A stretch of DNA of 64,000 bases from Eunapius fragilis (Eukaryota; Porifera; Demospongiae; Spongillida; Spongillidae): contig OY811985.1 of NCBI GenBank assembly GCA_963681505.1, forward strand, positions 4,143,271 through 4,207,270. Reading direction: 5' to 3'. Below, piece after piece: positions 6,801 through 39,300 of the stretch (the first letter of the stretch is position 1; each line of letters starts with the position of its first letter). Made by a program: the position numbers and the translations under genes. The notes below the pieces were generated by a model, which saw only the letters and a list, made by a program, of their open reading frames with translations, was not told the DNA's origin and made no database searches.

Positions 6801-9800
6801 TCATACCCTGGTACATGCATTGTCCTCTGTCATACCTTGGTACATGCATTGCCCTCTGTCATACCTTGGTGCATGCATTGCCCTCTGTCATACCCTGGTA
6901 CATGCATTGCCCTCTGTCATGCCCTGGTGCATGCATTGCCCTCTGTCATACCTTGGTGCAAGCATTGCCCTCTGTCATACCTTGGTACATGCATTGCCCT
7001 CTGTCATACCTTGGTGCATGCATTGCCCTCTGTCATACCTTGGTACATGCATTACCCTCTGTCATACCCTGGTACATGCATTGCCCTCTGTCATACCTTG
7101 GTACATGCATTACCCTCTGTCATACCCTGGTACATGCATTGCCCTCTTTCATACCTTGGTGCAAGCATTGCCCTCTGTCATACCTTGGTACATGCATTGC
7201 CCTCTGTCATACCCTGGTGCAAGCATTGTCCTCTGTCATACCTTGGTACATGCATTGCCCTCTGTCATACCCTGGTGCATGCATTGCCCTCTGTCATACC
7301 TTGGTACATGCATTGCCCTCTGTCATACCTTGGTACATGCATTGCCCTAGAGCTGTCATACCTTTATTGCAGACTGAAGATGTTCCTCCATGTTCCCAAC
7401 CTTCGTATACTGGTGTGTGGAGGAGATGGAACAGCTGGATGGGTTCTCTCAGTACTGGATGAGATCCTGGACCAGACTAGCACACCTCGGGGTGGTAATG
7501 CAAGGGTCAGACCTCCAGTGGCAGTACTACCTCTAGGAACAGGCAATGATCTGGCCAGAGTGCTTGGATGGGGAGGGGTAAGGATGTTTGGATGGGGAGG
7601 AGGGGTAAGGATATTTGGGTGGGGAGGAGGGTAAGGATGTTTGGATGGGGAGGAGAGGTAAGGATATTTGGATGGGGAGGAGGGGTAAGGATGTTTGGAT
7701 GGGGAGTAGGGGTAAGGATGCTTCGATCATCTCATGTAATCTGGGTGAACTAGTTCACCTGGGTGTTCTGTTGTAGCTGTTTAATTTTGTAATTATTCAT
7801 TTAACCCCACCTCCAAATACAACACCTAGTCTCACCTCTTTTACCACAACGTTCCTACCTGCTTCTCACCCTCTTCCTTGCATACTTATATTAATTTACA
7901 TACATGTACATGTACATTGAAAGTCATGAAGTATTCGTATTTGGGGTGCAGAGTTTATGGTTTAATTTTCATTATGCTATTGCAGTTGTTTTATTTTGAT
8001 CCAGGCATGCCTGTTAAACAGGATTTGAATTCCACACCTGGTGTAGCTGTTGTTTTTAAATTGACATCAAGGGGAGTGGCCGTGACAGAGTATACATGTA
8101 CATACATGTAGTGTGCATCTTTTACTTTTGTACCTTCTATTACAGGGCTATAGTGATGAACCTCTGGAAAGAATTTTGTATCAAGTAGAGACTGGATCCA
8201 TTGTAAATTTTGACAGGTGGCAGCTGAACATATTTCCTAATGAAGATGCTGCTAGAACCGTATGTCCAGGATTTGGGTGCACTGCACATTGGTGTGGTTT
8301 GATTGTATGGCTGCATATGCATCGATAGTGGAGAACGGTAGTACAGTGTATGTGGCAGGTGTTCATGTATGTGTGGAGATAAAGAAGTTAGAGATAGTCA
8401 CAGCCTGGGCTTAATTGTGTAAAACATGCTGTACATTGTAGGCCTAATGTATGTACGTATGTGTGTGTCTGTGTATGTCTGTGTGTGTGTCTGTGTGGAT
8501 AATTTATATAGCAGACTGCTATATTTTCCTGTAGCCAGTAGAACAAGGAGCTGTGAGTGACATTCCACTCCATGTGGTCAACAACTACTTCAGCATTGGA
8601 GCTGATGCATCAGTGGCCTTGGAGTTCCACCTGGGAAGAGGTACATGTCTACACTGTACATGTCTACACTGTAGATAACAGACCTGGGGTACATGTGTCT
8701 ACACTGTAGATAACACCCATATCACTTATTAAATTTAAATCTGATCAAATGTACACTGTAATTCACACTAGCAGTTTGCCACCACCCAAAGGTCAGCCTT
8801 CCCTGAGGTCATAGCAGACCATGATGTGTACAAGTGCTCCAACATACTCTGCAGAGTGCTGTCCATAACCTATCTAAACCATTAGGTCATATGCCACCTT
8901 TTTGCCATTATTTTCCCACAGAGGCTAATCCAGAGAAGTTCAATAGCAGGCTTAAGAACAAGTTGTTCTACACAAGGGTAGGCTGAACTATGCATGTATG
9001 TCCTAATATAGATTGCCTTGGGGGACAGGGTTTGTGTTTCCTGTAATGATGGCTTGGCTCACAAGTGTTGCAATGATCTGTTCTCTTCTTCCCAGCTGGG
9101 TGGCAAAAACATTATGCAGAGGAAGTTTGCTAATTTGACCGACCACATATCACTTATGGTACGTTGTTGGTCTTTGGTACGTGCATGTATATTTATACAT
9201 GCATGAGATAGGCTTGGAGAAAGGGGGATTAAGAAATAGCTCTAATATGTACGTGTATTTTACTGGACTGTTGTGTATGCTTAAAGGAGTATATTTAGGA
9301 AAAGCCTTTGGCCAGCTTACATATAGTTGTGGTCGAAGGTAAAATTGTTGCTTGTCTAGTAATCTGTGATCATAACTTCAATACCTTATTGTGATAGTTG
9401 TAGTACATGTACTGCATGCCTGTTGTTGGCTAGTCCATCCAAAGCCATGGCTTTGGATGCACATCCAGTGGAGAATTATTGGGGGAGAGCTAAGTAAGCA
9501 ACTCTTTAGAGGGACCCAGCCAGCAGCAAGAAGGTTGAACAGAAACTGGTAGACCTGGGCAGAGAAACGTTGAATTCTCATACTGGAAGGACCAGGGTGC
9601 TGCGCCTTTGAGACTGCACCTTTGAGACCAGGGCGGCTTTGCCTTTGGGACAAGGGGGGGGGGGGGCTTTGCCTTTGAGACCAGGGGTGTGTGCCTTTGG
9701 AACCAGGGGGACTGTGCCTTAAGAAAATGATGCTATTGATGTTAAAATTAATAGTTAAGGTGACAGGGTCCTGAGGGGGAAACCCATCTGCAGAAGATCA

Positions 9801-36300: not shown

Positions 36301-39300
36301 TTCGGTGTGTGTACCCAGGTACGTGGGTACCCACGCCATTGAGGTATATGTGTACCCACGCCTGTACCCAAATTGTTATTTGATATCAGAGAGGTTAAAT
36401 CTCATAATGGTAGCTTGTCACATTAGTTCTCTCTCTCTCCCTCCCTCCCTCCCCCTCCCTCTCTCCCTCCCTCCACTCCCTCTTTCCCCTCTGTCCCTCC
36501 CTCTATCTATCTACCTCTCTCTCTCTCACTCTATATTTCATTCTCTCTCTCCCTCTGCAGACTGAAGATGTTCCTCCATGTTCCCAACCTTCGTATACTG
36601 GTGTGTGGAGGAGATGGAACAGTTGGATGGGTCCTCTCAGTACTGGATGAGATCCTGGAGTATCGGAAACAGGAATTTGGTCATGATTTGGATCGACCTC
36701 CAGTGGCAGTACTACCTCTAGGAACAGGCAATGATCTGGCCAGAGTGCTTGGATGGGGAGGGGTAAGGATGTTTGGATGGGGAGGAGGGGTAAGGATGTT
36801 TAGATGGGGAGGAGGGGTAAAATGTTTGGATGGGGAGGAGGTGTTTGGATGGGGAAGAGGGGTAAGGATGTTTGGATGTGCCTGGGCAAGGGGGAGGGGG
36901 TTTTCTTTACATATGCCTGGGAGAGGGGAAGGTGATTCCGGAGGAGGTCCTCTTTACATGTTGGTAAGATGGTTTATTAACATTGCTTACTCCATTGTCA
37001 GGGCTTCAGCGGAGGGTCGTTGGATAGGATTGTGATGAACGTAGAACTTGGCAGCATAGTGAACCTGGATAGATGGCTTCTCTTTGTGGTGCGCAATGAA
37101 GGATGTTCAGTAAGTCATCTGGTTGCTTTCACTTATAACCTCACAGATGCCATCACTGTAAATATGATACACATTTAATATATAATTGTACACAGCATGA
37201 TTAAGTTGTTGGATTTTTTTTTTGTTGTATGGTTGGAAAGCGTTGAATTTTTGATGATGCACAAACATTGTAAGATTCAAACTTACCCTGCTAATTATTA
37301 TCACTCCAGGGTCCTTTGTTGGGATTGAGGCAGTGAAAAAGTACCTAGTGCATATTCCATGAAGAAGCATCAAAGTTGACACATGCAATTAAAATGTATG
37401 CATAATTCAGGCCACGATGGACAGTCTAATTTCCAGTGTGTAAGACAGAAATTGCAGAGGACATAGGCGCTCTTAGAATATGAAATACTTTGAAAACTTT
37501 TTAAAAATATGCGCTAGGTCCTTTTCACTGCCTCGATCCCGTTTGTTGTATTGTAAATTCTACAGCACATTTATGTAATACACATACATGTGCTGTATTT
37601 ATATACCTCCTATGCATGTAACATGTCCAGCGTAGTACTGGAGCATGTGTGTGTGTACATTACGCTGCCATTGCTACACAGGAGACGGAACAAGGAGCTG
37701 TGAGCGATACTCCACTCCATGTGGTCAACAACTACTTCAGCATTGGAGCTGATGCATCAGTGGCCTTGGAGTTCCACCTGGGAAGAGGTACATGTCTATA
37801 CTGTAGATAACAGACCCCCTTGGGGTACATACATGTCTACACTGTAGATAACAGACCCCCTTGGGGTACATACATGTCTACACTGTAGATAACAGACTCC
37901 CTTGAGGTACATACATGTCTACACTGTGGATAATAGACCCCATTGGGGTACATACACGTCTACACTGTAGATAACAGACCCCCCCTGGGGTACATGTCTA
38001 CACTGTAGATAACATACCCCCCTGCAGTACATGTCTACACTGTAGATAACAGACTCCCCTGGGGTACATGTCTACACTGTAGATAACAGACCCTCCTGGG
38101 GTACATATCTACACTGTAGATAACAGACCCCCCCCCCCCCCCCCTGGGGTACATGTCTACACTGTAGATAACAGACCCCTCCGGGGTACATGCCTACATT
38201 CCCTTTGGTACCCTTATAACACCCTTAACAGCACGTGTTATACTCATTTACATGATACTGAAATCTGCTGTATGCATGTGTTTGCATGTATGTCACATCA
38301 TGGTGTATTTATTTGCATGCCTGTTACATGCCTGCATACCTGTTACATGCCTGTATTTATTTACATGCCTGTGTTACTTGTTGTATTTATTTGCATGCCT
38401 GTTATTGGCTGTATTTATTTACATGCCTGTTACTGGCTGTATTTATTTACATGCCTGTTACTGGCTGTATTTATTTACATGCCTGTTACTGGTGTATTTA
38501 TTTGCATGCCTGTTACTGGCTGTATTTATTTACATGCCTGTTACTGGCTGTATTTATTTGCATGCCTGTTACTGGTTGTATTTATTTGCATGCCTGTGTT
38601 AGTGGCTGTATTTATTTACATGCTTGTTACTGGTTGTATTTATTTACATGCCTGATACTGGCTGTATTTATTTGCATGCCTGTTACTGGCTGTATTTATT
38701 TGCCATTTACAGGTAAATTATAGAACCCTCGCTATACCAGTGTGCATGAATTCAGATATATTTGGAAATTGCACGCCTCTAATTTCATGATGTTACATAA
38801 CTGTGTGTGGGGTATATGCAGTAAATCGTGGGGGGTCTGGACATAGCATTCTGAAACCTGCTAGGAACAGTAAATAAATATGGTGTATATTGCATAATCA
38901 GTGCATACTTTCACTGTTATGCCCTAATAGAGGCTAATCCTGATAAATACAAGACGAGAATTGAAAACAAGATCCACTATATCAAGGTGTGTGTGTGTGT
39001 GTGTGTGTGTGTGTGTGTGTGTGTGTGTGTGTGAGCACATGAGCTGTGTCCATATTATTTCGTGTCCTTGTCATGCACTACATGTACATTACTAGCTTGG
39101 GGGCAAAGACACAGTTCAGAGGAAGTTCATCAACTTCACAGACAGTATTACAGTAAAGGCAAGTATGACCTTTCGACACAGCTACACCATGTCAGCTACA
39201 CCATGTCAGCATGTATGGACCACTATGTGCGGTTAGGTTAATGCTCTTCGTATCGACGCTGGAACCTTTCCTTTTCTTAGACATTCATAGTCATGACTTC

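Follow-up and report, generated by a model that had tools for sequence, protein, structure and literature searches.

The window analysed here is a stretch of 64,000 nucleotides from the demosponge Eunapius fragilis (assembly GCA_963681505.1, contig OY811985.1, positions 4,143,271 to 4,207,270 of the forward strand), which harbors two tandem diacylglycerol-kinase (DGK) genes and, downstream of the pair, a MsrB/SelR-like gene. Seven exon ends in these genes adjoin tandem arrays whose units carry the 5' splice site (donor). We consider these arrays to be ordinary intronic minisatellites which arose when an exon-intron junction was duplicated in tandem, the introns of this genome being rich in minisatellites where sampled, and give this explanation a probability of about 70%.

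Tandem Repeats Finder, with a minisatellite taken as a repeat with a unit of 9 bases or more, yields 57 merged minisatellites that cover 16,563 of the 64,000 bases of the window. Those at exon ends all lie on the forward strand (positions are those of the window). Array A of DGK copy 1 (7561-7727, at exon end 7577) has a unit of about 27 bp, TTTGGATGGGGAGGAGGGGTAAGGATG, made of the exon tail followed by a GTAAGG donor; array A of copy 2 (36757-36878, at exon end 36762) has the same unit, and is hence not independent. Array B of copy 1 (8641-8673) opens with the first base of the intron behind 8640; its unit, GTACATGTCTACACT, holds no exon tail. The related array in copy 2 (37789-38133), with a 41-bp unit of the same family, opens with the second base of the intron behind 37787. 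Array C (15070-15304, at exon end 15077) shows a 33/34-bp unit, ATGGGAAGGCAAGTACACACAGGGACAGTAGCT, which joins the exon tail to a GC donor. The array at donor 28928 (28918-29191) has a 32-bp unit with TGGGAG/GT(A/G)TGTG, and that at donor 54416 (54406-54918) a 22-bp unit, GGGACAGAGAG/GTTAGCCATTG. All seven exon ends listed in an earlier note on this DNA thus exist where it placed them, 7577, 15077, 28928, 36762 and 54416 inside their arrays and 8640 and 37787 with arrays that begin at the donor, but only five junctions are independent, since 7577 and 36762 are homologous donors that both carry array A, and 8640 and 37787 are homologous donors that both carry array B. At four of these five (7577, 15077, 28928 and 54416) the unit includes copied exon-tail sequence together with the donor. 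The earlier note regarded the donor inside the unit as striking, but any unit that begins within the exon tail and exceeds this overlap by more than two bases is bound to contain the donor, whose presence hence follows from geometry.

The exons concerned were defined through paralogs, homology and our own splice score (based on consensus values), which set the splice sites from the sequence alone. DGK copy 1 spans about 829 to 24508 or beyond and copy 2 about 28833 to 44439 or beyond; we take the subtype to be zeta/iota-like. Ten exons were given to Pfam, of which three match DAGK_cat, one DAGK_acc just under the cut-off, one C1_1 weakly and one ankyrin repeats, the remaining four showing no match. 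The exon whose tail is copied in array A (7373-7577) belongs to the catalytic domain (DAGK_cat at 7374-7577, 2.6e-16) and is supported by the paralogs, as is its copy 2 equivalent at 36561-36762 (DAGK_cat at 36562-36762, 5.7e-17). The exon at 8535-8640, with donor GAAGAG/GTACAT, and its copy 2 paralog at 37682-37787 derive from paralog comparison; the start at 8535 is our reading, which agrees with phase 0 and the frame PVEQGAV, where the splice-scoring script picked 8539 instead. Paralog comparison also gives the exon at 14980-15077, which ends in AVSWE, has no Pfam match of its own and shares 91-94% identity with four further DGK paralogs; its donor, AAG/GCAAGT, has GC instead of GT at 15078-15079. 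The likely 5' exon of copy 2 (28833-28928), ending in LSWE with donor GAG/GTATGT, is based on splice signals, frame and its position ahead of the next DGK exon; it shows no Pfam match. The same holds for the exon at 54337-54416, which we read from splice signals, frame and position, again with no own Pfam match, and which is presumably part of the MsrB/SelR-like gene; that gene shows a weak SelR match at about 56791-56896 (E 0.0028, under the curated cut-off) and a stronger one at 58958-59053 (1.4e-11).

Concerning the direction of copying, the unit of array A repeats the exon tail coding for LGWGGG and then the donor, and the array from 54406 repeats GGGACAGAGAG, coding the GTER tail; we take the LGWGGG and GTE motifs to be conserved beyond this genome. 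Because these exon tails are coding, the exon is a likelier source than the array, and probably the junction was duplicated into the intron. The first copies of array A are 24 bases long in six of six cases, three under the common unit, and start with C. Seeding of this kind is apparently not restricted to donors: in a USP-like gene elsewhere in the genome (locus L018) an acceptor-side array with a 43-bp unit (4049-4492) ends inside an exon, at 4479, and its units, where printed, carry CCCCAG followed by sequence resembling the exon head, which suggests that junction seeding extends to acceptors as well. In the same locus, the last unit of a 30-bp array at 6572-6928 apparently extends as far as a TTTTAG acceptor, which belongs to a likely USP-like exon.

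The mechanism that we propose for donors is simple. A tandem duplication spanning the 5' splice site, produced presumably by slippage, microhomology or unequal exchange, would keep the original exon end and donor leftmost, and while splicing uses the first donor, the extra copies, each consisting of exon tail, donor and intron start, would be intronic and silent in the mRNA. Such silent copies would be free to expand, contract and homogenise. We infer the exon as source from coding constraint, and assume likewise that the first donor is used and that the extra copies are neutral. Of the 51 internal donors of the seven window arrays, 43 would cause a frameshift or a stop if used, and 8 would keep an open frame, so that splicing from the first donor is what fits genes that work. 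In L018, outside these 51 window donors, none of 19 internal donors is in frame and open.

Similar arrays have been described before, in human genes. In intron 18 of human ABCA7 lies a variable-number repeat with a 25-bp unit, and the canonical exon 18 donor is formed by the two bases with which this repeat opens. Its copy number ranges widely, from about 12 to 427, and canonical splicing occurs together with a transcript that retains one unit (PMC5954066). The arrays of the window resemble it in that a repeated unit carrying the donor stands at the exon end and varies in copy number, but the ABCA7 repeat starts at the GT, whereas in the window exon-tail sequence is part of the unit as well at four of the five junctions. 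In the minisatellite of human 6-16/IFI6 two downstream repeat units serve as donors, giving three mRNAs (PMC4526556). Like ABCA7, IFI6 is a single human gene with RNA evidence, while the present arrays are read from DNA alone; what they share with both is an array that adjoins the exon end and whose units carry the donor. Human segmental-duplication genes also contain variable internal minisatellites, with an average unit of 30 bp, some of them at exon-intron boundaries (PMC2812944); these can create novel introns, none of which is seen here. Finally, intron gain has been described by tandem duplication that crosses or supplies splice signals, with ATP2A1 and the potato RdRp as named cases (PMC4974935). 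The analogy to such AGGT-type intron gain drawn in the earlier note is mechanistically close, but those cases create an intron, whereas here an existing intron receives extra donors: in the comparison, which covered arrays A, B and C and left aside donors 28928 and 54416, no new intron absent from relatives was seen, the three arrays standing at exon ends with counterparts in the DGK paralogs. A literature search on minisatellites in introns of sponge genomes found no paper. The present arrays join the ABCA7/IFI6 kind as a new and unusually dense case.

Among the alternatives, the one that survives best regards donor junctions as mutational hotspots, where the AG/GTRAG signal or transcription-linked structures at the intron start promote slippage or microhomology-mediated duplication. 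We hold it to be improbable, mainly from the count of exon ends in contact with arrays outside the window, a contact being an array that takes in at least one exon base (in the placement model an array may reach as far as 16 bases into the exon). The outside sample comprises seven loci, six myosin regions obtained through a whole-genome Pfam search (218.9 Mb, 24 contigs) and the USP4/15-like locus L018, and is not random: the six myosin regions examined are mostly the longer of 13 and hold 50 of the 87 matches, and L018 was chosen for its repeat richness among 20 systematic 10-kb samples. Myosin matches with unclear ends (e.g. L032 8479-8709 and L033 6391-6756) were excluded before the count, and six L018 exons were used, five with a Pfam or PDB match, in some cases weak, and one, at 6935, by reading. 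Minisatellites cover 17,211 of the 56,105 bases of these loci, whose introns are thus no poorer in repeats than those of the window. Two of 49 donors (L018 5242 and L032 310) are in contact, versus 1.64 expected under random placement, and one of 51 acceptors (L018 4479), versus 1.66; a cruder uniform expectation gives 2.2 and 2.23, respectively. With the myosin loci only, the figures are 1 of 44 donors versus 1.56 and 0 of 45 acceptors versus 1.57. Hence, in the seven outside loci, no donor excess is seen over array density or over acceptors. The proposal that junctions act as seeds for duplication stands as far as intronic units copy coding exon tails together with the donor, but it does not extend to a general excess at donors, and the donor enrichment across the genome that the earlier note set out as a check does not appear in this small and not fully random sample. 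Since the 95% limits on the outside donor ratio of observed to expected are 0.15-4.4, a modest donor excess, under about 4-fold, may be compatible with it. Pfam scans of L012 (forward strand), L014 (reverse strand), L025 and L026 gave few exons, which stand outside these counts; two L026 exons were examined and have no adjoining array. In the 20 systematic samples (L007-L026) minisatellites make up between 0 and 0.331 of a locus, so that repeat density is very uneven.

Several observations weigh against the view of the arrays as ordinary minisatellites, and the first two of them also favor a hotspot. In the window 5 of 32 donors (4 without the paralog) are in contact, versus 0.49 expected for placement in non-coding space and 0.88 under the cruder uniform expectation, and four or more donor contacts arise in 0.1% of 4000 random placements. 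Over all loci, donors in contact (7 of 81) outnumber acceptors (1 of 84), with a Fisher p of 0.03; when the paralog is removed, the donor count becomes 6 of 80 and p rises to 0.06. This lead may leave space for a genuine donor effect. Outside the window, contacts taken together with arrays that end within 10 bases of an exon amount to 6 donors versus 2.91 expected and 7 acceptors versus 2.95, about double the uniform expectation, so that array edges cluster near exons on both sides, for which exons stopping arrays may be an explanation. In array A, moreover, 4 of 8 internal donors keep an open frame (1 of 5 in copy 1 and 3 of 3 in copy 2), and their use would lack obvious harm.

As for the window counts, acceptors show no contact (0 of 33 versus 0.48 expected), the donor rates inside and outside (5/32 versus 2/49) show no clear difference (p 0.11), and the window is a post-hoc outlier, because it was chosen by the earlier note for exactly these contacts. 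A hotspot also draws on GT-rich microsatellites, which start at the first intron base of 5 of 81 donors, the mirror case occurring at 0 of 84 acceptors. A GT tract must begin at GT, however, which in part creates a donor bias by itself, and four outside acceptors also adjoin a microsatellite if a gap of 10 bases is tolerated; the acceptor array of L018 at 4049-4492, with its exon-head-like sequence, speaks against a process restricted to donors as well.

The DGK paralogs allow the fate of the arrays after gene duplication to be followed. One DGK exon searched in the genome gives at least six matches, all on the contig that holds the window (C15). Array A occurs at the same donor in six of the six DGK copies found, and array C in five of six, as the search for its exon in window copy 2 gave none. 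Array B can be recognised clearly in copy 1 (where it is short), in copy 2 and in two further paralogs, P5 and P6, and degenerate versions of it are carried by P2 and P4. Copy number varies among paralogs, which were compared here rather than alleles: array C has about 7, 10.9, 18, 18.9 and 31 copies in its five bearers, and P2 and P4, whose compared flanks are nearly identical, have about 19 and about 31. Arrays A and C of copy 1 are common to all four further paralogs and B to two of them, while none of the 8 other copy 1 arrays in the compared stretch is common to all four and two are common with P4. Sharing with all four is hence found for 2 of 3 donor arrays versus 0 of 8 others (p 0.055), and sharing with any paralog for 3 of 3 versus 2 of 8 (p 0.06), figures in which the last arrays are only partly covered, the paralog sequence past array C extending over just 919-1712 bases. 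Exon-anchored minisatellites might thus outlast free ones, the coding end holding the seed unit so that donor arrays survive gene duplication while their neighbours turn over; we put this forward tentatively, as an idea with rather low odds. If true, genes would operate over long times with as many as about 31 near-identical decoys downstream of the real donor, which would call either for a strict first-donor rule or for extra donors acting as a splicing buffer.

In the comparison of the two window copies, the exon pairs beside arrays A and B show nucleotide identities of 0.87 (7373-7577 and 36561-36762) and 0.92 (8535-8640 and 37682-37787, computed with the exon start at 8539), and the remaining 12 DGK exon pairs 0.54-0.70. 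As the adjoining exons exceed the identity of these other 12 pairs, the pattern suggests gene conversion next to arrays A and B.

Retention of the donor arrays for splicing, as redundant donors, as decoys that bind U1 and thereby delay or adjust splicing, or for occasional inclusion of an extra unit, appears to us less likely than a hotspot. In its favor are the sharing of arrays A and C between copy 1 and all four paralogs, which none of the 8 other copy 1 arrays matches, and the usable internal donors of the human ABCA7 and IFI6 repeats. A further support is a conservation count on 11 arrays, namely array A from four paralogs, array C from five, and those at 28928 and 54416 (B and L018 are left out): of 294 cells, 286 have an intact splice dinucleotide. 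The donor 9-mer is kept in 1257 of 1293 cells, but the remaining unit is nearly as well kept (2969 of 3107), a small difference that fits constraint and homogenisation alike, and homogenisation suffices to explain it. In addition, free intronic arrays are shared too, namely the two copy 1 arrays found in P4 and an 18-bp array common to P2, P4, P5 and P6. The preservation of donors for a splicing role, offered in the earlier note as an option, is therefore not supported, given units kept almost evenly throughout and the 43 of 51 internal donors that would break the frame. Accidental contact, with independent intronic arrays spreading up to the exon or conversion writing array sequence into it, would be allowed by array density for the contacts outside the window but is very unlikely for the arrays described, given that the exon tails are coding and in frame and that the six first copies of array A have the length and initial C expected if a coding-constrained exon copy gave rise to the array.

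The arrays offer a compact natural experiment on how a 5' splice site is chosen: one and the same transcript presents as many as about 31 near-identical donors behind an exon, and the paralogs provide homologous donor positions with differing array copy numbers. The negative enrichment result is informative in its own right: in repeat-rich introns a number of such contacts is to be expected without any hotspot.

Three further window donors, absent from the list of the earlier note, open GT-rich tracts at the first intron base, all on the forward strand: a GT-rich tract at 6556-6616 after exon end 6555, (GT)23.5 at 38987-39033 after exon end 38986, and (GT)58.5 at 40576-40692 after exon end 40575. 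Together with L033 3778, L034 (reverse strand) 706 and L036 269 they make up six exons with such a tract, five of the tracts being classed as microsatellites and that of L033 3778 as a minisatellite. A run of 200 N at 48482-48681 may be an assembly gap. It should also be noted that GC donors are common, with 7 of the 81 annotated donors, all as AG/GCAAGT, at window positions 15078, 24509, 33047 and 39159 and at L031 8424, L032 (reverse strand) 5242 and L033 4109.

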